NCBI RefSeq assembly: GCF_000384395.1
Contig: NZ_ARWE01000001.1
Span: 1,426,001-1,490,000, forward strand
DNA length: 64,000 nt
Direction of reading: 5' to 3'
Source: Geopsychrobacter electrodiphilus DSM 16401
Lineage (GTDB): Bacteria > Desulfobacterota > Desulfuromonadia > Desulfuromonadales > Geopsychrobacteraceae
The notes beneath the pieces are model-generated. The model saw only the letters and a list, made by a program, of their open reading frames with translations. It made no database searches and had not been told where the DNA came from. Made by a program: the position numbers and the translations under genes. Of this stretch, positions 25,217-39,707 are shown one piece after another (the stretch's first letter is position 1; every line of letters starts with the position of its first letter).

Positions 25217-26530
25217 ATGTTGCCTGTTGTCGCTATCGTCGGTCGCCCTAATGTTGGTAAGTCGACGTTGTTTAATCGGATTCTCGGACAACGCAAGGCG
25301 ATTGTCGAAGACTTTGCCGGGGTCACGCGTGATAGGAACTATGCTGAAATCACGCGTTATGATAAGCCATTTTTGTTAATCGATACCGGCGGTTTTGAGC
25401 CTGCCAGCACCGATCAACTCTTATCACAGATGCGTGAGCAGTCACAACTGGCTGTGGAAGAGGCCGATGTCGTCATTATGCTCATGGATGTGCGGGATGG
25501 TTTAACTCCGTCTGACATCGAAGTCGCTCAGTTGTTGCGTAAAGTCAGGAAACCGGTGTTCTTTGTCATCAACAAGGTTGATGGAGATAAACAAGAGACT
25601 GCTACTGCCGAATTTTATGCCCTTGGTGTTGAGCAGATCCACACGATTTCTTCTGCACACGGCCGCGGAGTCGGTGAACTGCTCGATGAAGTGATGGATC
25701 TCCTGCCGGAGAATCCTCTGCCGGAAACTGAGGGTGAGGTCCGGCTGGCTGTCATTGGGCGACCGAATGTTGGAAAATCGTCGCTGGTCAATCGTCTGCT
25801 CGGGTTTGAGCGCGTGGTTGCCAATCCGACCGCAGGTACCACACGTGACAGTGTTGATACACCGTTTGACTTTGAGGGGCAACGCTATGTTCTTATCGAT
25901 ACGGCCGGGATAAGGCGCAAGGGACGCGTCAGCCAGACTCTTGAAAAATACAGTGCAGTTCAGGCGCTGAAGGCGATGGATCGAGCCCATGTGGTATTGA
26001 TGTTGATTGATGCAGAGGAGGGTGTCACGGATCAGGACCTTGCGGTCGCAGGTTATGCGTACGAACGTGGGCGGGCGTTGATTCTGGTGGTGAATAAATG
26101 GGATATCCCGGACAAGGATACCAACTCCATGAAGCGCTATCTTGAGGATGTGCGCTATCGTTTCAAATATCTACCTTTTGCGCCGGTTCTCTTTATTTCG
26201 GCTTTGACCGGTCAGCGTGTCGATAAAATTATGCCGACTGTCGCGCGCGTCAATGGTGAATTTAATCGCAGGGTCACGACTTCTGAACTGAATTCAGTCC
26301 TCGAAGAGGTCGTCGCCCGCCATCCGCCAGCGATGGTCAGTGGTCGACGGATTAAGCTCTACTATGCGACCCAGACCATGGTTCGTCCACCCACGTTTAT
26401 GATCTTTACCAATTGCCCGGATGATATCCATTTCTCCTACGAACGTTATCTGCAGAATGCTTTTCGGGAGGCTTTCGGTTTTGAAGGTGTTCCGCTTTGG
26501 ATAAAGTTTCGTGGCCGTGATAAAAAATGA
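25217..26530 (+). CDS. der: GTPase Der (EngA), double GTPase
   Basis: A 437-residue protein with two tandem G domains and a KH-like C-terminus, required for 50S assembly. The first domain begins [13 protein letters not shown] and the second [13 protein letters not shown] at about residue 175, each with its own DTGGF/DTAGI switch and NKxD motif (NKVDG, NKWDI). It follows era after 104 bp; whether it shares the transcript is not clear. Confidence 0.96.
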
Positions 26531-26633: not shown

Positions 26634-28268
26634 ATGAGTTTGGTAGGCAACCTTGAGGATCTGGGCCTCGGCGATATTCTGCAGATTGTCAACCTCAGTA
26701 AAAAATCCGGGTTTCTTACCCTGACCTGTGGTCAGCGCCAAGGAACTGTCTCCTTTACTGATGGGTTGGTCGTGCAGGCCACTTCCAGTCTTTTTCAGTC
26801 CAGTCTGGGCAGCCTTCTGCTCAAACATAAGTTCCTGAAGCCCGAAGCTCTGGAGCTTGCTCTTGCCGAGCAGGCGACCTTGAAGCAACGAACCTTAGGC
26901 TCGATTCTTGTGTCGAACGGCCAAATCGCTTCCGAAAAAATAGAGGCCATCATTAAGGCCCAGGTTGAACGGATCGTTTATAATTTTTTCGGCTGGTTGG
27001 AAGGGACTTTCGATTTTCAACTCGATGAGTCAAATTTCCCTAGCTTGACTCCCTTGCCTTTTAGTGATTTTACTCTTGAGAATGGGCTGAATCCACAATG
27101 GTTGGTTTCTGAAGGTCGTCGGTTACTTGCCGAAGGACGTCTGGTTGCCGCTGAGACAGACATAGATTTAAATGTCGAGCTGGCTCAATCTGGCGGTCAT
27201 GTAGTTCAAGAGGCTCGACCACATTTCGCGGGTGAAAGCGGTCCGCTCTTCATCATAGATGATGATGACCCGACTCGATCGGTGTTACAAAAAGCCTTTA
27301 TTCGGGCCGGGTTTGAGGTTGAAGTTTTTGCGTTGATTTCTGACCTGGTTAATGCCTGTGCGGACAAATGTAAAATCGGGAGAAATCCGGCCTTACTAAT
27401 CGATTTAATTATGCCAAGGTTGGATGGCAATGGCATCTTGGGTGGTCTTGAAGTTATGGAGATTATTGCAGAGGAATATCCAACTCTGCCGATGATTTTA
27501 ATGACTGACCACCCCAATGCCGAGGCGGAAAAAAAAGCGAAAGAGCTTGGAGTTACTGTCGTTTTACGTAAGCCAAAGAAAATCGAAATTCGTGAAGAAC
27601 GAGGGGTTGAGATCCTTAAAAACCTGTTATTTGAAGTCGATCGGCATTTAATCACGAGGGGCTATCGACCACCTCAGAAAACAGCTGATTTTGATATTGG
27701 TCGTGATCTGGTTGATGACTTTGATCGCGTCGACCAGAGAGAAGGTCCCGAGAAAGAGGGTTCTCCCGGTCTTCATCTCCTTAAGGGCATGCTGCAAGAG
27801 CTGGTTAATCCGCTTCTGTGCGGTGGGGTTATTCTGTTGATTCTGCGTTTTGCCAGTGAGCTGTTGAATCGCGCAGTGATCTTTGATGTAAAGGGGAATG
27901 AACTCATCGGTATTGGTCAATTCGGACTGGATGAAACGACCAAAAATGCCGACAGGATGGTACGCAGTCTGCGACTCACAATTGATTCTGACTCTCTCTT
28001 TGGTCGGGTTCTGAATCAGAAATGCGCATTTCGAGGTCGGTTGGGACAGAGTGCTTCGGAAATAAAATTGCGGAATCAATTAGGAGGAGTTGTTGCTCCT
28101 GAGGTGTTTGTCGGCCCTCTGGTCAGTGGAGGGAAGGTTGTGGCCGTGCTTTACGGCGATAATTTGCCAGAATTGAGGTCAGTCGGCGATATTGAGGCTT
28201 TCGAAATTTTTCTTTCGCAAGCCGGGATGGCCATGGAAAAGGTCCTGCTGGAGAGGCGGGATACATGA
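26634..28268 (+). CDS. DUF4388 (PATAN)-receiver-GAF-like signalling protein
   Basis: A 544-residue multi-domain protein at the head of the chemotaxis-like cluster. Residues ~1-150 match the DUF4388/PATAN type (SLVGNLEDLGLGDILQIVNLSKKSG onset). Residues ~205-335 form a receiver with an acidic pocket (FIIDDDDPTR), a probable phospho-acceptor D in LLIDLIMPRLDG and a later RKPKK lysine. The C-terminal ~150 residues resemble a GAF sensor. No DNA-binding output is visible, so it may relay or bind signals by protein contact. It is inferred to be the first gene of the unit; no promoter was identified in the 103 bp before it. Confidence 0.72.
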   Translation: MSLVGNLEDLGLGDILQIVNLSKKSGFLTLTCGQRQGTVSFTDGLVVQATSSLFQSSLGSLLLKHKFLKPEALELALAEQATLKQRTLGSILVSNGQIASEKIEAIIKAQVERIVYNFFGWLEGTFDFQLDESNFPSLTPLPFSDFTLENGLNPQWLVSEGRRLLAEGRLVAAETDIDLNVELAQSGGHVVQEARPHFAGESGPLFIIDDDDPTRSVLQKAFIRAGFEVEVFALISDLVNACADKCKIGRNPALLIDLIMPRLDGNGILGGLEVMEIIAEEYPTLPMILMTDHPNAEAEKKAKELGVTVVLRKPKKIEIREERGVEILKNLLFEVDRHLITRGYRPPQKTADFDIGRDLVDDFDRVDQREGPEKEGSPGLHLLKGMLQELVNPLLCGGVILLILRFASELLNRAVIFDVKGNELIGIGQFGLDETTKNADRMVRSLRLTIDSDSLFGRVLNQKCAFRGRLGQSASEIKLRNQLGGVVAPEVFVGPLVSGGKVVAVLYGDNLPELRSVGDIEAFEIFLSQAGMAMEKVLLERRDT

Positions 28269-28325
28269 TTCAATTCGATTTAGTGATTTTTATGCCTTGG
28301 ATTTCTAGTGCGATGCGGGAGTGAT

Positions 28326-28694
28326 GTGTTGAAAAAAATTCTGGTGACAGAAGATTCTGCAGCGATGCGCGGCTTGATAGTTTCAACTCTAGAGGAGATG
28401 CAGTGCTTTGAAGTCGTTGAGGCGTGTAATGGGTTTGAGGCCCTGCGTGCTTTGCCTCGGGAGAAGGTCGATCTGATTATCACTGATATCAATATGCCCG
28501 ATATCAATGGTCTTGATCTGGTTAGCTTCTGTCGCACCAATCCCCTGTATCAGCAGACACCCGTTATTATCATCAGTACCGAAGGTAGTGAACGGGACCG
28601 CGAAAAAGGCCTGGCACTCGGTGCGAATGCTTATCTGATCAAACCCTTTCAGCCTGAAGAGTTGCAGCAGGTTGTTCGCCATTTGCTTGACTGA
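28326..28694 (+). CDS. CheY-like single-domain response regulator
   Basis: A 122-residue receiver with D10 in the acidic pocket, phospho-acceptor D54 (IITDINMPDING) and a KPF lysine near residue 105. No output domain. I take the GTG at 28326, four bases after GGGAG; a GTG at 28308 or TTG at 28329 are alternatives. It ends 13 bp before cheA, so it is a likely direct CheA target. It is similar in sequence to the receiver at 39012. Confidence 0.88.
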   Translation: MLKKILVTEDSAAMRGLIVSTLEEMQCFEVVEACNGFEALRALPREKVDLIITDINMPDINGLDLVSFCRTNPLYQQTPVIIISTEGSERDREKGLALGANAYLIKPFQPEELQQVVRHLLD

Positions 28695-28707
28695 GTGGAA
28701 GTTGTCT

Positions 28708-30735
28708 ATGGGTAAACAGCAGGCTGTAGATGAATTCCTTGCGGAAGCGGAGGAGTTGCTTGAAAAATTGAGCCAGGATCTCGCGATTTTGGGCGATGGG
28801 ATTGAGCTTGGAGACGTCAATCCAGATCTTCTCAATGGGATATTCCGTGATGCCCACTCGATGAAGGGGCTGGCCGGTATGTTCGGGTTTACTGATATCG
28901 CCGAGATTGCCCACCACCTTGAAACATTGCTCGACAAGTTACGTCTCGGCAAGGTTTCGCTTAACGGCATTCTACTTGACCTGTTGTTTGATACTATTGA
29001 GGGTGTAGGTTCTCTCGTCCGGGGAAAGTCAGATGACCCGAATTTCACGATCGACGTCAATCCCTATATTCAACGAATTGAAAACCTGCTGTCCGGGCAA
29101 GGAAAGGGTCACGCCTTCACACTTGAAGCGCTTAATCTCGATCAGTCTCTGCTGAATGTTTTGACCGAATACGAAGAGCATCGCTTGCAGGAAAACCTGA
29201 GTCAAGGGAAGCTTATGTTGCTGGCGAATATTTCGTTTCCGCTCGATAGTTTCGACAGCGAACTCTCAGAAATTATTTCAGAGTTTAAGCATCTTGGTGA
29301 GGTTGTCAGTACTTTGCCGGGCGCTTCAAATAACGATCCGAGCCGCCTTGCCTTTCGCATCCTTTTTGCGACTAAAAATACCCTTAAAGAACTCACGAAT
29401 CGTGCTGCACTGAAGGAGTGCCAATTTGACATTATCGCTGAAGCCAGAGCTGTTTCAACCGCTGGGCCGGTTCTTGACACCGGGAAGTCAACTGAACGGA
29501 CTGTTCCCATGTTTCCTGTCAGCGAGGATCCTTCAGTACGGTCAGTCAGCCATTCGGTTCGGGTTGATATTGGTAAATTGGACACCTTGATGAACCTTGT
29601 CGGCGAGTTAGGGCTGGTTAAGGGGAGTATAGCCCAGGTCGTCGGCGAACTTTCAGCGGCAGGTCTCGCCCAGTCACGAGACTTGGCCAAGGCAGCTCAT
29701 GCTTTTGATCGTCGCCTCGCCGAATTGCAGAAGGCCGTGATGGACGTGCGGATGGTTCCGGTTCGCCAGTTGTTTGACAAAATGGGGCGGATAGTCCGGC
29801 GTATGGCTCAGGAGTTGGGTAAAAAAGTCGAACTCAAAACTTTTGGTGCGGACACTGAATTTGACAAACTGATCGCCGAAGATCTGGCGGATCCATTGAT
29901 GCACATCATCCGCAATTCTCTCGACCACGGGATTGAACCGACGTCCGAACGGCTTGCCGCAGGGAAACCTGAGGTGGGTTGTATCGAATTGCGCGCTACT
30001 CAGCGTGGCAATCACGTAGTTCTTGAAATCAGCGATGACGGGAAGGGGATCGATCCAGAAGTCTTGCGCCGAAAAGGGATCAGCAATGGGCTGATTGATC
30101 CTGATGGACATTTCACGCGACAGGACCTCTTCGGTTTACTTTTTCATCCCGGTTTTTCAACACGGGAGGAGGTCAGTGAATATTCAGGCCGCGGGGTTGG
30201 TATGGACGTCGTCAAAAATAACATCTCCTCACTCTCAGGCATTATTGATATCGATAGCGTTTATGGAAAAGGCACCCTGATCAGCTTAACCCTGCCGATT
30301 ACACTGGCGATCATCAAGGCACTGGTTGTGCGCATCCAGCGTCGGGATTACGCGATCCCTTTGACGTCTGTTCTTGAGACTCTGCTCCTGGAGCCGGGAA
30401 TGATTAAGACGATTGATGGGCAGGAAGTCATCGAATTACGCCAGCAAACTTTGCCGCTGTTGCGGCTGAATCGGCTATTCGGTCTGGACCAAGAAACCAG
30501 CAAGCAGGGTGCATTTATCGTCGTGACTGGTTTTGCCGACCGCCGGATCGGAATTGTGGTTGAAGAATTGCGTGGTCAGCAGGATGTTGTGATCAAATCT
30601 CTGGGGAAATCGCTCTCGTTTGTTAAGGGGATTGCCGGTGCTGCCGATCTCGGTAATCAAAAAACAGTACTGGTGCTTGATGTCAGCAGTCTGATAACCG
30701 ACTCCTTGAGGGGGGACGGCAGCACTCATGTATAA
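28708..30735 (+). CDS. cheA: CheA-type histidine kinase
   Basis: A 675-residue chemotaxis kinase. P1 carries the phospho-acceptor H50 (FRDAHSMKGLAGMFGF). A region of unclear fold at ~140-260 replaces the usual P2. The dimerisation helix segment (LDTLMNLVGELGLVKGSI) and catalytic boxes follow: N box IIRNSLDHGIE, G1 DDGKGID, F box LLFHPGFSTR, G2 GKGTLISLTLP. A CheW-like P5 domain closes the protein. All ATP-binding motifs are intact, so it should be active. The ATG at 28708 fits the P1 start; the frame-open stretch before it overlaps the receiver gene. Its stop overlaps the next gene by 8 bp. Confidence 0.93.
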   Translation: MGKQQAVDEFLAEAEELLEKLSQDLAILGDGIELGDVNPDLLNGIFRDAHSMKGLAGMFGFTDIAEIAHHLETLLDKLRLGKVSLNGILLDLLFDTIEGVGSLVRGKSDDPNFTIDVNPYIQRIENLLSGQGKGHAFTLEALNLDQSLLNVLTEYEEHRLQENLSQGKLMLLANISFPLDSFDSELSEIISEFKHLGEVVSTLPGASNNDPSRLAFRILFATKNTLKELTNRAALKECQFDIIAEARAVSTAGPVLDTGKSTERTVPMFPVSEDPSVRSVSHSVRVDIGKLDTLMNLVGELGLVKGSIAQVVGELSAAGLAQSRDLAKAAHAFDRRLAELQKAVMDVRMVPVRQLFDKMGRIVRRMAQELGKKVELKTFGADTEFDKLIAEDLADPLMHIIRNSLDHGIEPTSERLAAGKPEVGCIELRATQRGNHVVLEISDDGKGIDPEVLRRKGISNGLIDPDGHFTRQDLFGLLFHPGFSTREEVSEYSGRGVGMDVVKNNISSLSGIIDIDSVYGKGTLISLTLPITLAIIKALVVRIQRRDYAIPLTSVLETLLLEPGMIKTIDGQEVIELRQQTLPLLRLNRLFGLDQETSKQGAFIVVTGFADRRIGIVVEELRGQQDVVIKSLGKSLSFVKGIAGAADLGNQKTVLVLDVSSLITDSLRGDGSTHV

Positions 30736-31531
30736 AGAATTCTTTAATTTCAGGGAGCGTCCTTTCAGTAAGACACCAGACCCCCTTTATCTCTATCCTT
30801 CACGGAGTCATCGTGAAGCTCTTGCCCGCCTGCTTCACGCCGTTGAAGAGCGCGAAATAATCCTGTTGACCGGAGATATCGGATGTGGGAAGACGACGCT
30901 GTCACGTGCGTTGCTTGATGAGCTTGGCGATACAGCCAGAGTCGCCCTGGTGACGAACCCTCGCCTTTCTCCGCTCGAACTGCTTTATAGTGTTGCATTT
31001 GGGTTCGGTGTTGAGACTCCCGCAAAAGATCGCCTTGGTCTTCTTGGGCAGATTGAACAGATCCTTTTTGATCTTTTTCACCAGGGGCGATTGCCGGTCC
31101 TGATAATCGATGAAGCACATCTGATTCCGCATCGCGACACCTTTGAAGAGATTCGTTTATTGACCAACTTTCAATTGGATGATGGCAACCTGTTGTCAGT
31201 TATATTTTTAGGGCAACCTGAGTTACGCCTGCGCCTTTCACATCCTGCGTATGAGCCCTTACGCCAAAGAATCGGCTTACAATATAAGGTGGGACCGCTC
31301 AGCCTGGAAGAAACAGCGGCCTATATACGTCATCGGCTCTCTTGTGCTGGATGTGTCACAGATATTTTTTTAGAGGATGCGGTCATTGCCTTATATCGTT
31401 TTTCAGGGGGCGTGCCGCGTCGAATTAATCAAGCAGCCTCTCTCGCATTGTTGGAGGCATTCGGCCGCGAACAAGCTCAGGTCGACGCGTCAATTATCGC
31501 TGAGGTTGCTGCAGAATTGTCGGGGATTTAG
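30728..31531 (+). CDS. ExeA/GspA-like AAA ATPase in the che cluster
   Basis: A 267-residue P-loop ATPase of the ExeA/TniB-like AAA group: N-terminal FFNFRERPFSKTPDP is typical of ExeA-type proteins, Walker A is LLTGDIGCGKTTLSR (about 45-58), Walker B LIIDEAHLI, and sensor segments LGQPELR and GGVPRRINQA follow. Unlike ExeA it has no transmembrane helix or peptidoglycan-binding domain. Its ATG sits inside the cheA stop (8 bp overlap), so it is translationally coupled to the kinase. Such an ATPase is not a standard chemotaxis part. Its role here is unknown. Confidence 0.82.
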   Translation: MYKEFFNFRERPFSKTPDPLYLYPSRSHREALARLLHAVEEREIILLTGDIGCGKTTLSRALLDELGDTARVALVTNPRLSPLELLYSVAFGFGVETPAKDRLGLLGQIEQILFDLFHQGRLPVLIIDEAHLIPHRDTFEEIRLLTNFQLDDGNLLSVIFLGQPELRLRLSHPAYEPLRQRIGLQYKVGPLSLEETAAYIRHRLSCAGCVTDIFLEDAVIALYRFSGGVPRRINQAASLALLEAFGREQAQVDASIIAEVAAELSGI

Positions 31532-31622
31532 AGTTTTTTAGTTTGGCCGTCCTATGTTCTGCTATACTTTGCCGGACAATAGACAGGGTCATATCTATCT
31601 TAAGCTACTTTGGATTTGCAAA

Positions 31623-32291
31623 ATGGATCTTGCGGAAATCAGAAAAAAAGCGCGCACGCAAAGCCCGATCGTGAGCAAAAGTATCCCACTGCAGAACGCT
31701 CTGATTCCGATTCAGAGTGAAACTCAGGTGCAGCCATTTGCTCAGCAAGTTCTCGATCACTTCTGGAGTGAGATGGGGGTTGAGAAAGTTTCTACTGAAG
31801 AGGAGTACACTCAGACGTTGACCGATACGATTTCGGTTGATGAAGCTTCTCAGATTCAGTGGCTTGGGTTCTATCTTGGTAAAGAGGAATATGCACTTGA
31901 TATTGAAGTTGTTTCTGAACTTATAAAACCTCGAACTTTAACCGAGCTGCCTTATGTCCCGGAATATGTCTGTGGCATAATTACCCTGCGGGGAGAAGTG
32001 ATACCGGTGGTTGACCTGGTCAGTCGACTCGGGCTTGTGCATGAAGGATATGACGATATTGATCTGAAGAGGATAGTGGTTTGTGAAGGGAGGGAGCAGC
32101 GTGTAGGGTTGCTGGTCGACCGAATTTCACAAGTTGTACGCCTCTCGGCTGATGAAATAGAAAAGCCACAGTTTTTCGGCGATAACCCGGCAACGGCATT
32201 TATTTCTGGCATCGGGCGTAAGCACGGACGCAGCCTTATACAGCTACATCCCGAAAAGGTTATAGACATTGAAAAAGGCCTGACTAACTAA
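31623..32291 (+). CDS. cheW: CheW-like coupling protein with N-terminal extension
   Basis: A 222-residue protein. The CheW domain occupies about residues 75-220 (IQWLGFYLGKEEYALDIEVVSELIKPR, then CGIITLRGEVIPVVDL). The first ~75 residues are a basic/glutamine-rich extension without recognised motif. It would couple receptors to CheA. I start at the ATG 31623 because the upstream open stretch (to 31554) has no coding character. The binding site before it is weak. One of two CheW genes in the cluster. Confidence 0.87.
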   Translation: MDLAEIRKKARTQSPIVSKSIPLQNALIPIQSETQVQPFAQQVLDHFWSEMGVEKVSTEEEYTQTLTDTISVDEASQIQWLGFYLGKEEYALDIEVVSELIKPRTLTELPYVPEYVCGIITLRGEVIPVVDLVSRLGLVHEGYDDIDLKRIVVCEGREQRVGLLVDRISQVVRLSADEIEKPQFFGDNPATAFISGIGRKHGRSLIQLHPEKVIDIEKGLTN

Positions 32292-32369
32292 GTCTCTTTT
32301 TTCAAGTTGATATCTACCGTTCTGTCAAACAGACAGTTCTGACAACAAAGTGTGGAGGGCGCTGTTAAA

Positions 32370-32744
32370 ATGCAAAAAAAAATATTGATCGTCGAAGATG
32401 AAGAGAGCTTGTTGAAGCTCGAGAGCATTTTACTGACAACCAAGGGTTATCTTGTTCAGGGAGTGACCTCCGGTTTGTCCGCTTTGGAAGCGGTCAATGA
32501 GGAGCATCCTGACCTGATTCTGTTAGACGTCATGTTGCCCAAAATGGATGGCTTTGAGGTTTGTCAGCGACTAAAAAATGATCCCGCTACGCGGGGAATC
32601 CCGGTTGTTTTGTTGACTGCCAAAAAGACACCTGAAGATCTTGCGCGCGGAGAAGAGGTCGGAGCCGATCACTACATAACCAAACCGTTTAAATCTGCCA
32701 TGGTGATCGACATTATTGAGCAGTTGGTGGGCAAAAAAAGTTGA
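32370..32744 (+). CDS. single-domain response regulator
   Basis: A 124-residue receiver with E9/D10 pocket, phospho-acceptor D53 (LLDVMLPKMDG), and K in ITKPF. No output domain. The ATG at 32370 is ten bases after GGAGGG. It lies between the two cheW genes and overlaps the second one by 4 bp. It resembles PilH/PleD-type receivers more than the CheY pair at 28326 and 39012. Confidence 0.86.
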   Translation: MQKKILIVEDEESLLKLESILLTTKGYLVQGVTSGLSALEAVNEEHPDLILLDVMLPKMDGFEVCQRLKNDPATRGIPVVLLTAKKTPEDLARGEEVGADHYITKPFKSAMVIDIIEQLVGKKS

Positions 32745-33262
32745 ACTTGAGATTTCTGCCACCAGTAAATGAGGGGGCAGCGGATAAGGAAATTAAGCTG
32801 GCCTGCTTGCGCGTAGGGTCAGCTTTTTATGCCTTGGATATCTTGGTGATTCGTGAAATTATCAGGCCCTTGCCGATTATTCCGGTCCCGCGCGCCCCTG
32901 ATTATGTAGAGGGTGTCATTACTCTGCGCAAGGCAGTGATTCCAATTCTTGATCTGCGCCGTCGTTTTGGAATTGAGCCATGTTCCGAACCTCATGAGCG
33001 GATTATTATCTGTGCGGTTGATGGGCGGATCATCGGTCTGAAGGTTGATGCGGTGACGGAGGTCGTTACTTTTTGGAGAGATGAAATACAACCTGCACCA
33101 TATTATATGGCTAGAGCCGACAGTGAATTTTTCCCAGGTGTTTGTCGCCATAAGGGGAAGCTTCTGTTTTTGCTTGATCTGCGCAAAATCCTCGTGAATA
33201 ACCATCGTATAAACGCCGCACAGCTTCAACAACAGGCGCTCGAAGGTGTAAAGAAAGATTAA
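32741..33262 (+). CDS. cheW: CheW-like coupling protein
   Basis: A 173-residue CheW-domain protein (IKLACLRVGSAFYALDILVIREIIRP, VEGVITLRKAVIPILDLRRRFG) with a short C-terminal tail. It starts at a TTG overlapping the preceding receiver stop by 4 bp, with GGTGGG at suitable distance, so translation is probably coupled. Possible separate role from the other CheW, for instance binding a different receptor class. Confidence 0.85.
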   Translation: MNLRFLPPVNEGAADKEIKLACLRVGSAFYALDILVIREIIRPLPIIPVPRAPDYVEGVITLRKAVIPILDLRRRFGIEPCSEPHERIIICAVDGRIIGLKVDAVTEVVTFWRDEIQPAPYYMARADSEFFPGVCRHKGKLLFLLDLRKILVNNHRINAAQLQQQALEGVKKD

Positions 33263-33269
33263 AATTTTA

Positions 33270-34094
33270 ATGATTATCGCCTGCCCACAATGCCAGAAAA
33301 AATTACGGATTCATGCGGGGAAGTACGCCGGAAAGAGACTTTCACTCTCATGCCGAAAATGCGGAGCTCAATTCCCCTGCCAAGTTTCCCCCGCATCAAA
33401 AATTTTACTCGCCCATGGTGACCCTGAGGTCTGCCGAACGATACTGGATGTCTGTTGTCAGGATGTGTCTGAAATTCAGACCTGTGCTGACGCCCAGCGG
33501 GCGCGACAGCTTTTAAATCAATTTTGTTTTTCGGTTCTGCTGCTTGATGTCGCGTTGCCGGGGGCTTTCCCTTTTCAACTAATTGATGAGATTCATCAAA
33601 GTGGTGAATCCACTCGGATTATCCTGATCCCTTCGGTTTACAATCGAACGGCTTATAAGAGACGTCCCTCTTCGCTCTATGGAGCAGACGCCTACCTCGA
33701 GTTGCATCACCTGTCTGATCGTCTGATTCCTTTGTTACACGAGTTGATCCCCGGGCTGACTTTGAACAGCCTTCCTTATTGCGCGATGAGCGATGTAGGA
33801 GAAGAGCGAACATTGTCACCCGAAGCGTGTCTCAACGAGCAGGCCGCAGATCTCGCGCGCATGTTAATTGCTGATATTGCTCTTTATCATCAGGATGCAA
33901 TTGACTTGGGGATTCAGCAACAGGACCTTGAGGTGCGCTTGGCGCTGCAGCTTAGTGAAGGGCGACAGATGTTGGCGCGCAGAATTCCTCAAATTGAACT
34001 AGATAAACAGGATTATTTATTAGAGGCTCTAAGTCAATTTGCAGCTGCGCGAAAAAAAGAAATGTATTCTGGCGGAGAGGCATTCAATGGCTGA
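33270..34094 (+). CDS. zinc-ribbon protein with degenerate receiver domain
   Basis: A 274-residue protein. Residues 1-40 form an MJ0042-type zinc ribbon (CPQCQKKL, then CRKCGAQFPC). Residues ~44-165 form a receiver-like fold with D in LLLDVALPGAF, but the region that normally carries the invariant lysine reads GADAYLELHHL, with no KP. Phosphorylation-driven switching is therefore doubtful. A helical C-terminal part of ~100 residues has no recognised family. It overlaps the HEAT gene by 8 bp. Zinc-ribbon receivers are known in Geobacter-group genomes; the function is unknown. Confidence 0.7.
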   Translation: MIIACPQCQKKLRIHAGKYAGKRLSLSCRKCGAQFPCQVSPASKILLAHGDPEVCRTILDVCCQDVSEIQTCADAQRARQLLNQFCFSVLLLDVALPGAFPFQLIDEIHQSGESTRIILIPSVYNRTAYKRRPSSLYGADAYLELHHLSDRLIPLLHELIPGLTLNSLPYCAMSDVGEERTLSPEACLNEQAADLARMLIADIALYHQDAIDLGIQQQDLEVRLALQLSEGRQMLARRIPQIELDKQDYLLEALSQFAAARKKEMYSGGEAFNG

Positions 34095-36105
34095 TAAGGC
34101 GCAATTGGCACTGCTGCTTGAATCCCCTGATACTGAAGAGCGAATCGCCGCCGTGAGGCAGATTGCACAGGTGACTGACGACCCGATGACACTCTTTTCT
34201 ATCGGGCTCGGGGATGGCGATTGGCGGGTTCGCAAAGCTGCGGTCGCGGCTTTTTTTCAAGTTGAGCGACCTGAAACCTATTTAGATGAGCTGATCGGGT
34301 ACTTGCATAACCCTGAAAATGCCGGTTTGCGGAATGCGTCAATTGATATTTTGACCAGCCTCGGACCTTTGGCTGTCAGCCAGTTGCGAGCAGAAATTGC
34401 CTGTGAAGATATCGAAGTGCGAAAATTTATTATCGATATTTTGGGCGAAATCGGCGACTCCAGTTGTGCTGATGAGTTGACATGTTCCTTGACCGATACC
34501 GACATTAATGTTCGCTATGCCACTGTAGAAACTCTTGGGAAGCTGCGCGTTTTGGGCGCCGTTGAACCGCTTTTAGCGTTGATGACCGATCCTGATCCCG
34601 GGCTTAAATTTACAATTTTGCAATCGTTGACGCAAATCGGTGGGTCGATACCGATTGAACCCCTGGCTATTCATTTGAAGGACCCTTTATTACGTAGGGT
34701 GCTCTTTGATTGTTTTGCCAAGGTTGGCGGTTGCGATGCGATTCCGTATCTTGTCAGGGGATTGTGTGATCCTTTGCGGCAGGTCCGCGAAGCGGCGGTC
34801 ATGGCTCTATTTGAATTGCAGAGTTCGGGACATTGTCCTCTCGACGAGGAGTTGATCAAGGTTAATGCCGGACAGATTGCTGGTGAGCTCGAACATTTGT
34901 TTTTGGATGAGAGGCATCAGCTTAAAAAGGCTGCGCTTGCGATTTATGCTCCATTTGGAAGAACGCGGGATTTGCGTCCCTTGCTTTCCTGTGTGGCTGA
35001 TGAACACCTGCGCAGTCAGGCGCTCAAGGTTTTTGCCGATCTTGGGCCGACATCCTATAACCGTTTACTTAAATCCCTCAGTGGCCCCGAACCGCAAGAG
35101 CTCATCTCTCTTATTCATATTGGAGGCGAGCTAGGTTTTGAGCAAGGGTTGTCATTTGCGTTAGATGGTATTCATGCCGAAGACCCTCAGTTACGGCATA
35201 CCTCAACCAGGACGATAGGTCAGTTAGGCAGCGCGGCAGAACTGAACCATTTATTGCGTCTGCTTGATGATGAGGTTTCTGAAATTCAGGATGCTGCAGT
35301 CGCCGCCATCGCCAGGATTGGCCGGCGGCAAAGGTCCGATATTTTACGTTCAATTGTTCCTTTCCTTGATGATCATGATGCCTCGAAACGGATGCGCACT
35401 GTGCGGATTCTTGGTTCTCTTGATGGTGAAGAGGTAGAAGCCCATCTCTTGAAAGCGTTCAAAGATTCATCGAGTCGCGTGCGTTGCGAAGCTCTCCAAG
35501 CGCTGATGGGCTGTTGCTCTGAACCCGTTATTTCAGGCGTAACTCTGGGTTTAACTGATGAATCTCCTGAAGTTAGACGCCTGGCAGTAAGTGCTCTTGG
35601 CCAATATCCTCAGTCACGAGTGCTACCAGCATTATTTCTGGCCGTCGAGGATAACGACCTGTGGGTAAGGACGGCCGTGATGCGTACATTAGGGCATTTC
35701 TCCGGTGAGGACGTAAGAAAACTTTTGCTACGCGGTATCGGAGACTCCATCGGGCTGGTAGTGATCGCCGCCCTTGAAGCTGCGATCATTGTTATTCCTG
35801 ATGAGAGTCGCGGACTGCTTGAACATGCCCTTGGGCATGTTGATGAAGAGGTTGTCAAGACTGCGATGAACCACCTCGGGCGACTAGGTGCCACGGATTG
35901 GATTGAACCTTTCGGACGAGGGTTGCTTCACCATCCTCATTGGGATGTGCGTATCCATGCAGCGAGAAATCTTGGTGACAGCGAGCTGAGTCTAGCGGCT
36001 CAATGGTTGGAGGAGCGCTTGAAGGTTGAAGAGGACGAGCTTGTGCGTCAGGCCCTGAATGCCGCCCTCTCCAGCCGATTGTGTGTCCTGAGCCGCGAGC
36101 ATTAG
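34087..36105 (+). CDS. HEAT-repeat protein of the che cluster
   Basis: A 672-residue protein made of consecutive HEAT (PBS lyase-type) repeats over its whole length, with typical phrases such as DGDWRVRKAAVAAF, VRYATVETLGKL, VREAAVMALFEL and VRRLAVSALGQYP. No membrane segment or enzyme motif. Such solenoids usually serve as protein-binding scaffolds. I chose the ATG at 34087 after GGAGAGG; it overlaps the previous gene by 8 bp. CheR follows 1 bp later. A scaffold for the Che-type complex is an inference. Confidence 0.82.
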   Translation: MADKAQLALLLESPDTEERIAAVRQIAQVTDDPMTLFSIGLGDGDWRVRKAAVAAFFQVERPETYLDELIGYLHNPENAGLRNASIDILTSLGPLAVSQLRAEIACEDIEVRKFIIDILGEIGDSSCADELTCSLTDTDINVRYATVETLGKLRVLGAVEPLLALMTDPDPGLKFTILQSLTQIGGSIPIEPLAIHLKDPLLRRVLFDCFAKVGGCDAIPYLVRGLCDPLRQVREAAVMALFELQSSGHCPLDEELIKVNAGQIAGELEHLFLDERHQLKKAALAIYAPFGRTRDLRPLLSCVADEHLRSQALKVFADLGPTSYNRLLKSLSGPEPQELISLIHIGGELGFEQGLSFALDGIHAEDPQLRHTSTRTIGQLGSAAELNHLLRLLDDEVSEIQDAAVAAIARIGRRQRSDILRSIVPFLDDHDASKRMRTVRILGSLDGEEVEAHLLKAFKDSSSRVRCEALQALMGCCSEPVISGVTLGLTDESPEVRRLAVSALGQYPQSRVLPALFLAVEDNDLWVRTAVMRTLGHFSGEDVRKLLLRGIGDSIGLVVIAALEAAIIVIPDESRGLLEHALGHVDEEVVKTAMNHLGRLGATDWIEPFGRGLLHHPHWDVRIHAARNLGDSELSLAAQWLEERLKVEEDELVRQALNAALSSRLCVLSREH

Positions 36106-36106
36106 A

Positions 36107-36985
36107 ATGTTTGTTTTCAGTCCCGATATTATCCTCGAAAGAGAAGAATTCCAGCTTTTGCGAGATTTTATATATCAGCACTGTGGCCTTCATTTTGCCG
36201 ATGAATCAAAGTATCTGCTTGAAAAACGTCTAAATAAGCGTCTGTCTGAACTTCACCTGAGTTGTTTCCGTGAGTACTATTATCAGTTGCGTTATGGCCA
36301 GAATCGAGATCAGGAACTTGCTGCGGCGATTGATCTGTTGACGACCAATGAAACCTATTTTTTCCGCGAAGATTTTCAACTGCAGACCTTTACTAATGAA
36401 GTTATTCCTGAACTGGTAAAGACTAAACTGATGCGGAGAGAGAGGTCTATCCGTATCTGGAGTGCGGGCTGTTCCAGCGGCGAAGAACCTTATACCCTTG
36501 CAATGCTTTTACTAGAAAACCCCCTATTGCAGGGATGGTCGATCGAAATAATAGGAACCGATATCAGCCAGCGGGTTTTGAAGACTGCGCGCGAAGGTCT
36601 TTATGGTCAAAATTCGTTTCGAGCGACTGATGAAAATATTTTGAAGAGGTTTTTTACCCCCGTTGGGCAGAAGTGGCAGATCGATAGTCGGGTTAAGGAT
36701 TTGGTTTCGATCAGCCATCTCAATTTTTTTGATAATCATCGAGTGGCTTTGCTCGGCATGATGGATGTTGTTTTTTGTCGAAACGTCATAATTTATTTTG
36801 ATCTGGATGCGAAAAAGAGAGCCATCAGCATTCTTCATAATCGTTTGCGTCCAGGTGGTTATCTTCTCCTGGGTCATTCTGAGTCTCTGATGAATGTCAG
36901 TTCCGATTTTTGCTTGCGGCATTTTACCAATGATATGCTTTATCAGCGACCGGATTCGGCGAAAAATGCGGAGCGGGGGAGTTGA
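36107..36985 (+). CDS. cheR: chemotaxis protein methyltransferase CheR
   Basis: A 292-residue SAM-dependent methyltransferase that modifies glutamates of chemoreceptors. It has the N-terminal helical CheR domain (TTNETYFFRE motif), the SAM site IRIWSAGCSSGEEPYTLAM and the VFCRNVIIYFD motif. It begins 1 bp after the HEAT gene and ends in a TGA that overlaps the cheB start region, so the two are coupled. Confidence 0.93.
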   Translation: MFVFSPDIILEREEFQLLRDFIYQHCGLHFADESKYLLEKRLNKRLSELHLSCFREYYYQLRYGQNRDQELAAAIDLLTTNETYFFREDFQLQTFTNEVIPELVKTKLMRRERSIRIWSAGCSSGEEPYTLAMLLLENPLLQGWSIEIIGTDISQRVLKTAREGLYGQNSFRATDENILKRFFTPVGQKWQIDSRVKDLVSISHLNFFDNHRVALLGMMDVVFCRNVIIYFDLDAKKRAISILHNRLRPGGYLLLGHSESLMNVSSDFCLRHFTNDMLYQRPDSAKNAERGS

Positions 36986-36987
36986 TG

Positions 36988-38046
36988 ATGAAAAAAATTC
37001 GAGTGCTGGTTGTTGATGATTCGGCATTCAATCGTGTCTCTATTGGGAAAATGCTGGAACAGATTTCTGAAGTCGAAATCGTTGGATACGCCGCAGATGG
37101 AGAAGCCGGCCTGCGAAAGGTTTTTGATTTAAAACCGGATCTGGTGACGCTGGATCTAGAAATGCCGAAGATGGGCGGCTTCAGCATGCTACGTTTAATA
37201 ATGAAGAGCTGTCCAACCCCTGTTCTGGTGATCTCCTCGCGCAGTGGTGATGCGGATGTTTTCAAGGCTCTAGAATTGGGGGCAATCGATTTTGTCGCCA
37301 AGCCTTCACGTCCGATCAGTTCAGAATTTTATTCGATCCAGACGGATCTCGAACGCAAAATTCGTGATTTTTCAAGTTTCGAGCCGGATCAGTTTCGGTT
37401 ACAAAACTCGTTGCGGGGGGAGGGGAAAATTTGTTCTGACGTAAGGGTATTTGCTGGGTCACCGGTGCTCCATCCTCCCAAAGCGGTGGTGATTGGCTCT
37501 TCAACAGGAGGGCCACCGGCTCTGCATCATTTTTTATCTGAATTCAAGACCTCTCCCGGCGTCAGTTTTGCGGTTGCGCAGCATATGCCCCCTGGGTTTA
37601 CTCGGAGTTTTGCCGATCGCCTAAATGATCACTCGGTCTTCACTGTGACTGAAGCAGCTACTGGTGATTGTATGCGCCCAGGCCATGTGTATATCTGTCC
37701 CGGAGGTTGCAATATGCTATTGCGCCGATTCGCAGATGAAGTGAAAATTCAAATTGTTACACCAGATGAGAGCCAGATATATACTCCGTCGGTCGATGCC
37801 CTTTTTAAATCAGCTGCAAGCGTCTATGGCGCTGAGTTGCTCGGCATTGTCCTGACCGGGATGGGGAATGATGGTGCCGCCGGTGTCCGTGACATCAAAG
37901 AAGCCGGTGGGAGAGTCATTGCCGAAGCAGAGGACTCTTGTGTTGTTTATGGTATGCCGAAGGAAGCGATCGCTACAGGGTGCGTTAGTCTGGTGGTTCC
38001 GCTTTCCGGTCTGTGCGAAGAGATTAAACGTTGTTGCGTAGGATGA
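36988..38046 (+). CDS. cheB: chemotaxis protein glutamate methylesterase CheB
   Basis: About 352 residues. The N-terminal receiver has D10/D11 and phospho-acceptor D56 (TLDLEMPKMGG). The C-terminal methylesterase has the catalytic serine in VVIGSSTGGPPALHHFL, the histidine in AQHMPPGFT and the aspartate in GMGNDGAAG. ATG codons occur at 36985 and 36988; the GGGGGAG spacing fits 36988 slightly better. It removes methyl groups from or deamidates receptors. A phosphorylatable receiver implies control by the cluster's CheA. Confidence 0.93.
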   Translation: MKKIRVLVVDDSAFNRVSIGKMLEQISEVEIVGYAADGEAGLRKVFDLKPDLVTLDLEMPKMGGFSMLRLIMKSCPTPVLVISSRSGDADVFKALELGAIDFVAKPSRPISSEFYSIQTDLERKIRDFSSFEPDQFRLQNSLRGEGKICSDVRVFAGSPVLHPPKAVVIGSSTGGPPALHHFLSEFKTSPGVSFAVAQHMPPGFTRSFADRLNDHSVFTVTEAATGDCMRPGHVYICPGGCNMLLRRFADEVKIQIVTPDESQIYTPSVDALFKSAASVYGAELLGIVLTGMGNDGAAGVRDIKEAGGRVIAEAEDSCVVYGMPKEAIATGCVSLVVPLSGLCEEIKRCCVG

Positions 38047-38157
38047 CCGCTTCTTGTAGTTTTTTTTCTGTATTTTTGCTAGGATAGCGCGATTTAATTG
38101 TTTGTTTAAACGACTTGCAGGAACAGGGGTCGAATTCACTTTTATTTGGAGAGTATT

Positions 38158-38958
38158 TTGACAGACAGTGCTGACTCAGGTGGTATCCAGTCCAGAGCCG
38201 AAGAATTTATGCAAGTCTTCAAAAAGGGAGCTGAATTTACCCAGGGGCTTCTGAAGGAGAACGAGCGGCTGCGCTATCGCGTCCTCGAAGTCGAACAACA
38301 ACTTCGAGCAGAACCCCCTGCTAACGAATTGCAGCAATTGAAGGAACGACTGCAGCGAGTTGAATTTGAAAAGCAGGAAATCCTTGATCGGATCAGTTCT
38401 GTCGAAAAAGAGAACCTTGATTTCTCCAATCGCTACCTTGAAATTGAGGCCGAAAATAATCTGCTGGCAAATCTTTACATCACGACCTATCAGTTGCATT
38501 CAACCTTTGAGGTCCAGGAATTATTCAGGATTATCGAGGAGATTCTCTTGAATCTTGTCGGAGTCGAGGAGTTCCTTCTGCTGTTGCGCAACGAGAATGG
38601 CGAAATTGTTCAGTCGGTTGTCTCCGATTCAGGTGATTACCAATTGAAGTGTATTGAAATTGTTGAGCCTAAGATAATCGAGGGATTTTCCACCGGTCAG
38701 AGCTGGGTTGCAAGTGCTGAACAATTGCTTCAACTTTCCCCCGCAGCTCCTTTGGCAGTTATCCCGCTGCTGGTTGGGGATGAGATCGTCGGATTGCTTG
38801 CTGTCCAGCGTCTGTTGGCCCAGAAGCAAGGCTTTACCAATACTGATGAAGAGATTTTCGGTTTGCTGAGAGGTCATGCTGCAATGGCGATTTGTACCGC
38901 TGTCCTGCGGCTTGAAAACAAGGGTCGTCTCGGTTTTAGGTCCGGGCCTTTAGGGTAA
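38158..38958 (+). CDS. coiled-coil GAF domain protein
   Basis: A 266-residue protein. Residues ~10-100 form a coiled coil (LLKENERLRYRVLEVEQQL, LKERLQRVEFEKQEIL), and residues ~105-250 resemble a GAF sensor domain. No kinase or output domain. A TTG at 38158, five bases after GGAGAG, is the best start; a TTG at 38146 has no site in front. It is separated from cheB by 111 bp, so it may have its own promoter, and it precedes a CheY gene. Ligand unknown. Confidence 0.72.
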   Translation: MTDSADSGGIQSRAEEFMQVFKKGAEFTQGLLKENERLRYRVLEVEQQLRAEPPANELQQLKERLQRVEFEKQEILDRISSVEKENLDFSNRYLEIEAENNLLANLYITTYQLHSTFEVQELFRIIEEILLNLVGVEEFLLLLRNENGEIVQSVVSDSGDYQLKCIEIVEPKIIEGFSTGQSWVASAEQLLQLSPAAPLAVIPLLVGDEIVGLLAVQRLLAQKQGFTNTDEEIFGLLRGHAAMAICTAVLRLENKGRLGFRSGPLG

Positions 38959-39011
38959 AATAATTTTATTGAGTTTATTTAAATAAATCGTACCGCAGGA
39001 GAGAGGCTGTT

Positions 39012-39386
39012 ATGTCTGAGTTTAAGGTTCTGGTCGTTGAAGATTCTCCGACCATGCGGCAGTTAATTGTTTTTGCGCTTAAACGTATTCGCAACCTGCA
39101 CATTGAAGAGGCTGGTGACGGTGTCGGTGGTCTTAAAAAACTATCGGCACAGAAATTTGATCTGATAGTAACCGATATCAATATGCCGATTATGGATGGT
39201 CTTAAGCTGGTCAGCCTGATCCGGAACGATCCCCAGTATAAGGATGTACCTGTGGTGGTCATAACTACAGAAGGGGCGGTCGAAGATCGTGATCGAGCAC
39301 TAAGCCTCGGCGCCAATGAGTATATTACCAAACCGATTCAAACAGCTCGGATTCTAGAAGTTGCTAAAAAGCTTCTCGGTATCTGA
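39012..39386 (+). CDS. CheY-like single-domain response regulator
   Basis: A 124-residue receiver with E10/D11, phospho-acceptor D55 (IVTDINMPIMDG) and the conserved K in ITKPI. An excellent CAGGAGAG precedes the ATG. Close in sequence to the receiver at 28326, which suggests duplication. It ends the signalling cluster, 102 bp before infA. Confidence 0.9.
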   Translation: MSEFKVLVVEDSPTMRQLIVFALKRIRNLHIEEAGDGVGGLKKLSAQKFDLIVTDINMPIMDGLKLVSLIRNDPQYKDVPVVVITTEGAVEDRDRALSLGANEYITKPIQTARILEVAKKLLGI

Positions 39387-39427: not shown

Positions 39428-39488
39428 ACGCTCAAAGCAGTCGTAAGTAGTGCCCTTGTATGGGCGGTTGGTATCTCAGGAGGAACTC

Positions 39489-39707
39489 TTGTCTAAAGAA
39501 GAAGCAATTGAGGTCGAAGGTGTGGTTGTTGAGCCTTTGCCGAACGCGATGTTTCGCGTTAAGCTCGACAATGATCATGTTGTCCTAGCGCATATTTCCG
39601 GGAAAATGCGCAAATATTATATTCGTATTTTGCCGGGTGACCGGGTGACGGTGGAACTTTCCCCCTATGACCTGACTCGTGGGCGGATTACTTATCGCGC
39701 AAAGTAG
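39489..39707 (+). CDS. infA: translation initiation factor IF-1
   Basis: The 72-residue product matches the standard IF-1 length when started at the TTG 39489, which lies five bases after CAGGAGGA. The frame is open further upstream to 39450, but that extension is not part of IF-1. Single S1-like OB fold with [18 protein letters not shown] and [16 protein letters not shown]. Binds the A site of the 30S subunit during initiation. The TTG start may keep expression low, although this is inference. Confidence 0.93.

Follow-up and report, generated by a model that had tools for sequence, protein, structure and literature searches.

A beta-group (Esn-type) che cluster of Geopsychrobacter electrodiphilus and its likely receptors encoded in trans

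Beta-group che clusters, in which cheA, cheW, cheB and cheR occur without an mcp gene for a methyl-accepting chemotaxis protein (MCP), are conserved among delta-proteobacteria (PMC2577667). In Geobacter sulfurreducens, EsnB (GSU2220, a CheW), an ATPase (GSU2221) and EsnC (GSU2222, a CheA) are encoded by consecutive genes, and EsnA (GSU1704), an MCP with a GAF domain, is unlinked to esnB and esnC (PMC5585712). Transposon sequencing (Tn-Seq) and scarless deletion established the requirement for Esn proteins: EsnA, EsnB and EsnC are each needed on electrodes, where single deletions failed, but not on Fe(III) oxide, and Tn-Seq also picked out the ATPase GSU2221 (PMC5585712). EsnA gave two-hybrid signals with itself, EsnB and EsnC (PMC5585712), and EsnD makes cyclic diguanylate (c-di-GMP) in Geobacter (PMC6456294). 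Beta clusters and EsnA homologues have also been described from five Desulfuromonas genomes, three of which are given there as lacking a flagellar cluster (PMC8235581). Here we analyzed a 13-gene che cluster at positions 26634-39386 of a 64,000-nucleotide stretch of the Geopsychrobacter electrodiphilus DSM 16401 genome (hereafter the window; bases 1426001-1490000, the genome being 100% complete in one contig of 4,241,730 bases). We consider it probable that the cluster belongs to an Esn-type system with isoleucine-tipped (I-tipped) receptors encoded elsewhere and with a non-flagellar output to pili or biofilm through a PATAN protein and c-di-GMP. How receptors are matched to kinases in cells with several chemosensory systems is an open question, and it is hardest when receptor and kinase are unlinked.

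Cluster class and conservation

The ORF (open reading frame) list and Pfam domains gave 13 plus-strand genes in the order DUF4388-CheY-CheA-ATPase-CheW-CheY-CheW-zinc-ribbon receiver-HEAT-CheR-CheB-GAF-CheY, which bore out the 13 consecutive Che-type genes claimed in an earlier note made from the sequence letters. No MCP was found in the window by genome-wide search or by a tip-motif scan of window ORFs of at least 150 residues. Pfam gave no match to CheC, CheD or CheX among the 13 cluster proteins (a genome-wide search for these three was not made), nor to an HD domain in any of them; on the absence of an MCP, CheC, CheD and CheX from the cluster, the earlier note and these searches agree. 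The marks of the beta group are all present: cheA, cheW, cheB and cheR together, no mcp, no stand-alone HD-domain gene and wide conservation. Two marks of Esn are present as well, namely CheA, ATPase and CheW in consecutive genes and an unlinked MCP with a transmembrane (TM) region and a cytoplasmic GAF domain. The cluster is a beta-group (Esn-type) che cluster, a published kind, and EsnC and EsnB are the counterparts of its CheA and CheW, as judged from gene order, domain plan and the published numbering. The earlier note had set the combination apart from a textbook chemotaxis pathway; the combination is not new, since PMC2577667 already describes the mcp-less cluster as the beta group of delta-proteobacteria. 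The note's view that this is a Che system of alternative function, as in Geobacter-group bacteria, is most likely right, and the system non-flagellar, with no MCP in the window and no flagellin in the genome. Its phrase "no chemoreceptor" holds locally, but the cluster is probably not receptor-less, candidate receptors being encoded elsewhere.

The cluster is widely conserved. In a set of 60 genomes that included our own, full or split matches at E < 1e-150 placed the cluster CheA in 36, and no CheA in the remaining 24 scored better than 2e-106. In a co-occurrence set of 200 genomes of the class, each at least 90% complete, the cluster CheA was present in 163, with a presence cut placed where no best E-value fell (between 6.5e-139 and 5.6e-111). 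Synteny was sampled in 32 loci of 5.5 to 19.5 kb from the 35 other genomes with the cluster CheA, using ORFs of at least 80 residues. The order of the 13 genes was kept in all 32 as far as the contigs reach, apart from gene losses. The flanking genes, to which we assign the names der and leuS, are also conserved: era-der stood upstream in 30 of the 32 loci, the other two being short contigs that start later, and leuS stood downstream in 22, while the remaining 10 contigs stop short of it.

Profile searches showed some variants. The zinc-ribbon gene was not found in six loci (L045, L046, L050, L056, L066, and L070), the GAF gene in seven (L044, L045, L046, L050, L056, L058, and L067), the ATPase in L066 and the last CheY in L050 and L056; of the 30 loci covering its place, 29 have the DUF4388 gene, L050 being the exception. 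Five loci came from other families of the class. In three of them (G121, G143, and G126) the complete set of 13 lies between der and leuS, whereas G197 and G203 hold part of the set. Partial versions occur on contigs of Myxococcota and other delta-proteobacteria, including Anaeromyxobacter oryzae, among the matches listed. Because the order is kept across a bacterial order and in three of the five loci from other families, it is far beyond chance.

Candidate receptors and their tip residues

A genome-wide search detected three CheAs and five MCPs. Two of the MCPs adjoin the other two CheAs (loci L007 and L008), and three are orphans. Five MCPs is a small complement compared with the 8 to 17 of congeners, which include a high-scoring class (E near 1e-50) missing here. 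One orphan (G000:C1:2022970-2025030, minus strand) is built like EsnA, with a hydrophobic segment in its N-terminal part and a GAF domain; its arms extend about 180-200 residues from the tip, a figure too coarse to fix heptad class 40H. Its N-terminal part, without the shared signaling domain, had a strong match in 28 of the 36 genomes with the cluster CheA in the 60-genome set vs. 0 of the other 24. With a profile for the TM-GAF MCP and a presence cut in an empty interval of best E-values (1.2e-46 to 1.5e-20), this receptor was found in 154 of the 163 class genomes with the cluster CheA and in 2 of the 37 without it. In relatives, 9 of 12 loci have exbB-exbD upstream of the EsnA-type MCP gene, no more than a few kb away. 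The same pair stands just upstream of this gene in our genome (L004, 5083-6089), a possible functional link.

The second orphan (G000:C1:4194411-4196102) has 563 residues and two hydrophobic segments. At the level of the order, 50 of the 53 genomes with the cluster have it, as against 0 of the 35 that lack the cluster; of the three exceptions, G063 gave no match, G068 has a fragment containing a stop and G098 a 41-residue piece. All eight order-level cluster genomes that lack the EsnA-type MCP carry this second receptor, so at least one of the two orphans is present in 53 of 53 cluster genomes vs. 0 of 35 others. The co-occurrence of the cluster with MCP genes elsewhere, raised in the earlier note as a point to check, thus appeared for both receptors. 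We regard the EsnA-type MCP and the second orphan as the likely receptors in trans, a proposal new in this work; their pairing with the cluster CheA in this genome is putative.

The receptor tips were compared at the two positions that we take to match Tsr 385 and 388. The EsnA-type MCP and the third, 813-residue orphan have I/Q at these positions and the 563-residue orphan I/K, whereas both CheA-linked MCPs of the genome have E/R. EsnA-type MCPs of relatives have I/Q in 12 of 12 loci of the order and in both loci of another family. Thirteen second-MCP regions were fetched, and 10 have I at the first position, followed at the second by K (six), Q (three) or R (one). No readable tip was found in L173, L184 and L185; since L184 and L185 represent another family, the second receptor is not established outside this order.

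The background was drawn from 80 diverse loci among the matches listed, with Geobacter sulfurreducens not among them. The wider tip pattern, which recovered every one of the 29 positive-check tips, returned 59 background tips in 40 of the 80 loci, namely 56 E/R, one E/N, one E/Q and one I/Q. A narrower pattern, which would pass over the second orphan's tip, gave 54 E/R of 56 tips in 38 loci. The sole background I/Q tip belongs to an 862-residue MCP in L072, where it is encoded between the second CheW gene and the zinc-ribbon gene; L072 is a delta-proteobacterial contig of a distant relative that carries a beta-type cluster with the receptor inside. The 20 top-scoring MCPs of the order are all E/R and add little, having been selected on score and showing almost no variation at the tip. 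In the Tsr trimer, one dimer is joined to the next by an ionic lock of E385 with R388' (PMC8144572). The changed tip should favor trimers among I-tipped MCPs, apart from E/R receptors, and would in this way insulate the arrays. The tip signature was not found in print in a search of the open-licence literature and, as far as our searches show, is a new lead rather than a proven mechanism.

The DUF4388 protein, proposed output and alternatives

The first gene of the cluster (26634-28268, plus strand) encodes a protein with a DUF4388 domain (PF14332, 8.4e-26), which we take to be the PATAN domain, followed by a receiver (PF00072, 2e-10), so that the plan of a PATAN/DUF4388 protein with a receiver is present; its C-terminus is weakly GAF-like (GAF_2, 17.7 bits, under the Pfam cut-off of 28.6). 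PF14332 also matches in Synechococcus elongatus. An MshE/PilB-like helical module is predicted at residues 53-113, which make up the helical portion of the DUF4388 domain. Residues 58-110 scored 29.8 bits against the MshE-related c-di-GMP motif of NCBIfam (NF053729), short of its cut-off of 38, and all nine sequence matches in the Protein Data Bank (PDB) at E up to 1 were PilB or PilF (best 0.0048, next 0.022). A model of residues 1-175, built from a four-row alignment (mean predicted local distance difference test score, pLDDT, 83.5), superposed on MshE 5htl over 60 residues at 1.5 Å (Z 6.3) and on PilF-GSPIIB over 57 residues at 1.2 Å with 37% identity. The first ten rows of the fold comparison were all MshE, PilF or PilB (Z 6.3-4.1) and the next, unrelated row had Z 3.2; a Z under 8 would by itself be weak for an MshE-like fold. 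Foldseek gave no match at E <= 0.001, its MshE and PilF rows having probabilities of 0.99-1.00 and E of 0.5-0.9, and the MshE-like assignment accordingly leans on NCBIfam, the PDB sequence matches and the fold comparison together.

The MshEN domain has two tandem 24-residue motifs that bind c-di-GMP (PMC5013675). Both copies in the window protein retain Gly3 and Gln24; among 31 aligned proteins, these two residues occur in 28 and 27 for motif I and in 23 and 24 for motif II. A search of the open-licence literature found no MshE-like module in DUF4388 in print; this module and the second receptor are, as far as the searches show, new leads and not proven mechanisms. A second DUF4388 protein with a receiver is encoded two genes before a CheA with a receiver in locus L008 (6508-11662; G000:C1:1636507-1641661), where a receiver-DUF4388 protein and a 455-residue Hpt-CheW protein precede the CheA and an MCP lies behind it on the opposite strand.

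In the Esn-type system that we propose, the unlinked MCPs (the membrane-anchored, EsnA-like GAF MCP and the short MCP with two TM segments) would form arrays with the cluster CheA and its two CheWs, and the third orphan would probably join them. The EsnA-type MCP would sense in the cytoplasm through its GAF domain, CheR and CheB would adapt the orphan MCPs, and the tip of I with Q or K would separate these MCPs from the two E/R receptors beside the other CheAs. Phosphate from CheA would pass to CheB, the three CheYs and the DUF4388/PATAN receiver protein. The latter, with c-di-GMP, would bias the type IV pilus motor and the biofilm state, its MshE-like module reading c-di-GMP in part. The output is most likely a surface behavior, type IV pili or biofilm, acting through PATAN and c-di-GMP. 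PATAN-receiver proteins bind PilB in Synechocystis (PMC10519157, PMC9090330), and by analogy the window protein may contact PilB. Insertions in esnB and in pilB both raise a cyclic GMP-AMP (cGAMP) reporter in G. sulfurreducens (PMC8835794), a result that fits a pilus or biofilm output and does not prove it. Nucleotide binding and the parts played by the ATPase, HEAT and GAF proteins are putative.

Several observations weigh against this proposal. Nine genomes with the cluster CheA have no EsnA-type MCP (G014, G021, G029, G037, G057, G064, G085, G100, and G210), and G210 shows neither it nor the second MCP; G145 and G156 have the EsnA-type MCP without the cluster CheA, the CheA match of G156 (5.6e-111) lying near the gap. 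Outside the order the second MCP gave weak matches only (E of 1e-11 or weaker). The co-occurrence figures are raw counts and are not tree-corrected. The second MCP, meant as an either-way control for EsnA, itself co-occurred, so that both MCPs tested came out positive; the sole counter-check was that MCP counts overlap between genomes with and without the cluster (0 to 28 per genome without it; medians 8 vs. 11.5, taken by hand in the 60-genome set). Gene order, domain plan and the published numbering are the basis for orthology with GSU2220-2222 and GSU1704, and the ATPase, zinc-ribbon, GAF or DUF4388 gene is missing from some relatives. In several relatives (e.g., L055, L058, L060, and L067) the DUF4388 protein keeps its DUF4388 domain without the receiver, so a phospho-output through it cannot be universal. 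The top match among PDB sequences was helped by what reads as an expression tag of the PilB construct; the second starts at residue 55, past the tag stretch. Both RLG arginines are replaced in the window protein (by Ser and Thr). Since this Arg is present in 0 of the 31 aligned proteins in motif I and in 15 in motif II (missing in 31 and 16), binding of c-di-GMP or cGAMP by the modeled module is put forward as a hypothesis.

Three alternatives concern the kind of system and its receptors. An ordinary flagellar chemotaxis pathway, with flagellar genes elsewhere in the genome, would explain the full CheA/W/R/B/Y core set and accords with the flagellin found in 18 of the 36 cluster-bearing genomes. 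We consider it highly improbable, as flagellin, the sole flagellar marker searched, is absent from this 100% complete genome, and 18 of the 36 genomes with the cluster CheA have no flagellin over the cut-off, 13 of these 18 being at least 95% complete. Flagellin is also missing in 9 of the 24 genomes without the cluster CheA, and the two show no association (Fisher p = 0.43). Flagellar chemotaxis was rejected as the role of the cluster on these grounds, and its output is not flagellar here. That the system needs no MCP at all, its DUF4388, GAF or HEAT proteins feeding CheA directly, would account for the absence of an MCP from the cluster of this genome and for the GAF protein and the weak GAF-like region encoded there. 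Such an arrangement is quite improbable given the orphan MCPs of every order-level cluster genome, the MCP inside the cluster of L072 and the two-hybrid contacts of EsnA with EsnB and EsnC (PMC5585712); moreover, all 36 cluster genomes have at least five MCPs, and both MCP-free genomes of the 60-genome set lack the cluster. MCP-free signaling was disfavored on the MCP co-occurrence and the in-cluster MCP of L072. The co-occurrence could instead reflect shared ancestry, with joint loss in a few lineages and no functional link. The absences do clump in families f4, f18 and f7 and part of f1, and the counts carry no correction for the tree. We find this reading improbable as well, because genomes without the cluster keep other MCPs and mostly other CheAs, and because the tip signature independently ties the orphans together and to the in-cluster MCP of L072.

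A fourth alternative accepts the receptor link and limits the output to matrix or exopolysaccharide and EsnD-type c-di-GMP, with no action of PATAN on pili. This is a substantial possibility, though not the one we favor. Knocking out the beta cluster in G. sulfurreducens affects the extracellular matrix, according to unpublished work cited in PMC2577667, the EsnD phenotype (PMC6456294) points the same way, and the receiver or the whole DUF4388 gene is missing in some relatives. Against these stand the near-constant presence of the DUF4388 gene in loci that cover its place, the binding of PilB by cyanobacterial PATAN-receiver proteins and the like shifts of the cGAMP reporter by pilB and esnB insertions. 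PilT-family ATPases occur in 60 of 60 genomes and have no discriminating power here. A bolder extension of the Esn-type system with an output to pili or biofilm would combine a private receptor code of I with Q or K, by which a beta-group CheA lacking linked receptors could build an array of its own in a cell with several, with a PATAN protein acting as a two-input device of phospho-receiver and PilB/MshE-type cyclic-dinucleotide module, coupling the array to the pilus motor and to a c-di-GMP/cGAMP choice between electrode and mineral; we hold this tentatively and think it rather unlikely in full. If true, a two-residue tip signature would assign orphan MCPs to an MCP-less CheA from sequence and could be tested by point mutation. 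Likewise, an MshE-type module in DUF4388/PATAN would, if true, provide a concrete route from Che signaling to cyclic dinucleotides and the pilus motor. The pathway concerned governs electrode colonization in a current-producing bacterium.

Remaining genes and comparison with known systems

The other genes, all on the plus strand, follow the DUF4388 gene closely. CheY1 (28308-28694) is a stand-alone receiver (PF00072, 1.1e-28). CheA (28708-30735) has the Pfam plan P1-P3-P4-P5 (Hpt, dimerization, HATPase and CheW domains) without a receiver, and a motif scan found the phosphoacceptor motif AHSMKG. Alignment makes ATG 28708 the most likely start rather than TTG 28672, and CheA therefore does not overlap CheY1. 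The ATPase (30728-31531; AAA_22, PF13401, 2e-23) is related to the XrtA/PEP-CTERM ATPase family (TIGR03015, 239.6 bits, below the cut-off of 324.5), and a sequence search of the PDB gave no informative solved relative. In L213 (676-3558), L214 (653-3502) and L215 (978-3860) the ATPase follows the CheA stop directly and in frame; a single TAG interrupts an open frame of about 970 codons, and read-through would give a CheA-ATPase fusion. The first CheW (31554-32291; PF01584, 9.3e-34), CheY2 (32352-32744; PF00072, 5e-28) and the second CheW (32741-33262; PF01584, 4e-33) come next. The zinc-ribbon protein (33270-34094; PF13717, 1.4e-8) may hold a pseudo-receiver, because its PF00072 score is below the cut-off (28.0 vs. 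30.2 bits) and a motif scan did not find the K-P motif in this degenerate receiver.

The HEAT-repeat solenoid (34087-36105; PF13646, 3.1e-68) most likely starts at ATG 34087, not TTG 34039, as judged from an ortholog alignment and the bases, and therefore overlaps the zinc-ribbon gene by 8 bp. CheR (36107-36985; PF01739, 1.3e-54) precedes CheB (36982-38046; PF01339, 5.9e-62), in which a motif scan found the Ser, His and Asp catalytic motifs. The cluster ends with a protein that has an N-terminal helical stretch, read from its sequence, and a GAF domain (38146-38958; PF01590, 2.6e-6), and with CheY3 (39012-39386; PF00072, 5.4e-29). Adjacent genes are spaced at -8 (CheA-ATPase), -4 (CheY2-CheW), -4 (CheR-CheB) and, after revision of the start, -8 (zinc-ribbon gene-HEAT). 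A scan of the gap upstream of the cluster for a sigma-54 pattern found nothing. Outside the system, the der GTPase gene (25217-26530) and leuS (39837-42395), both on the plus strand, are the conserved flanks. An infA gene (IF-1-like) at 39450-39707 lies between the cluster and leuS, and is at the same place in L048, L051, L061 and L063 among ORFs of at least 80 residues.

Comparison with the closest described systems places the new elements. The window cluster resembles the beta group as presented in PMC2577667 in having cheA, cheW, cheB and cheR without mcp and in missing the HD-domain gene of the alpha group; we saw no decisive difference from that account, and the trans receptors, the tip and the MshE-like module are what is new. 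It shares with EsnABCD (PMC5585712) the CheA-ATPase-CheW order and an unlinked TM-GAF MCP, but the electrode phenotype is that of G. sulfurreducens. The Desulfuromonas beta clusters (PMC8235581) are likewise mcp-less, accompanied by an EsnA homologue and present also in strains without flagellar genes. That account covers five genomes compared with 200 here, and the second receptor, the tip and the fold analysis come from this work. Synechocystis Tax1 and Tax3 (PMC10519157, PMC7690835) are similar in combining a Che system with a PATAN-receiver protein and a likely contact with the pilus motor. The Synechocystis PATAN proteins are described as CheY-like, whereas the window protein consists of DUF4388, a receiver and a weakly GAF-like end, and the window cluster, unlike Tax1 and Tax3, adds the HEAT, ATPase and zinc-ribbon proteins. 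The MshEN domain (PMC5013675) and the window module have in common two tandem 24-residue motifs and a helical fold; the module differs in the replacement of the RLG Arg by Ser or Thr, in a spacer of 6 and not 5 and in its position within a DUF4388 domain.

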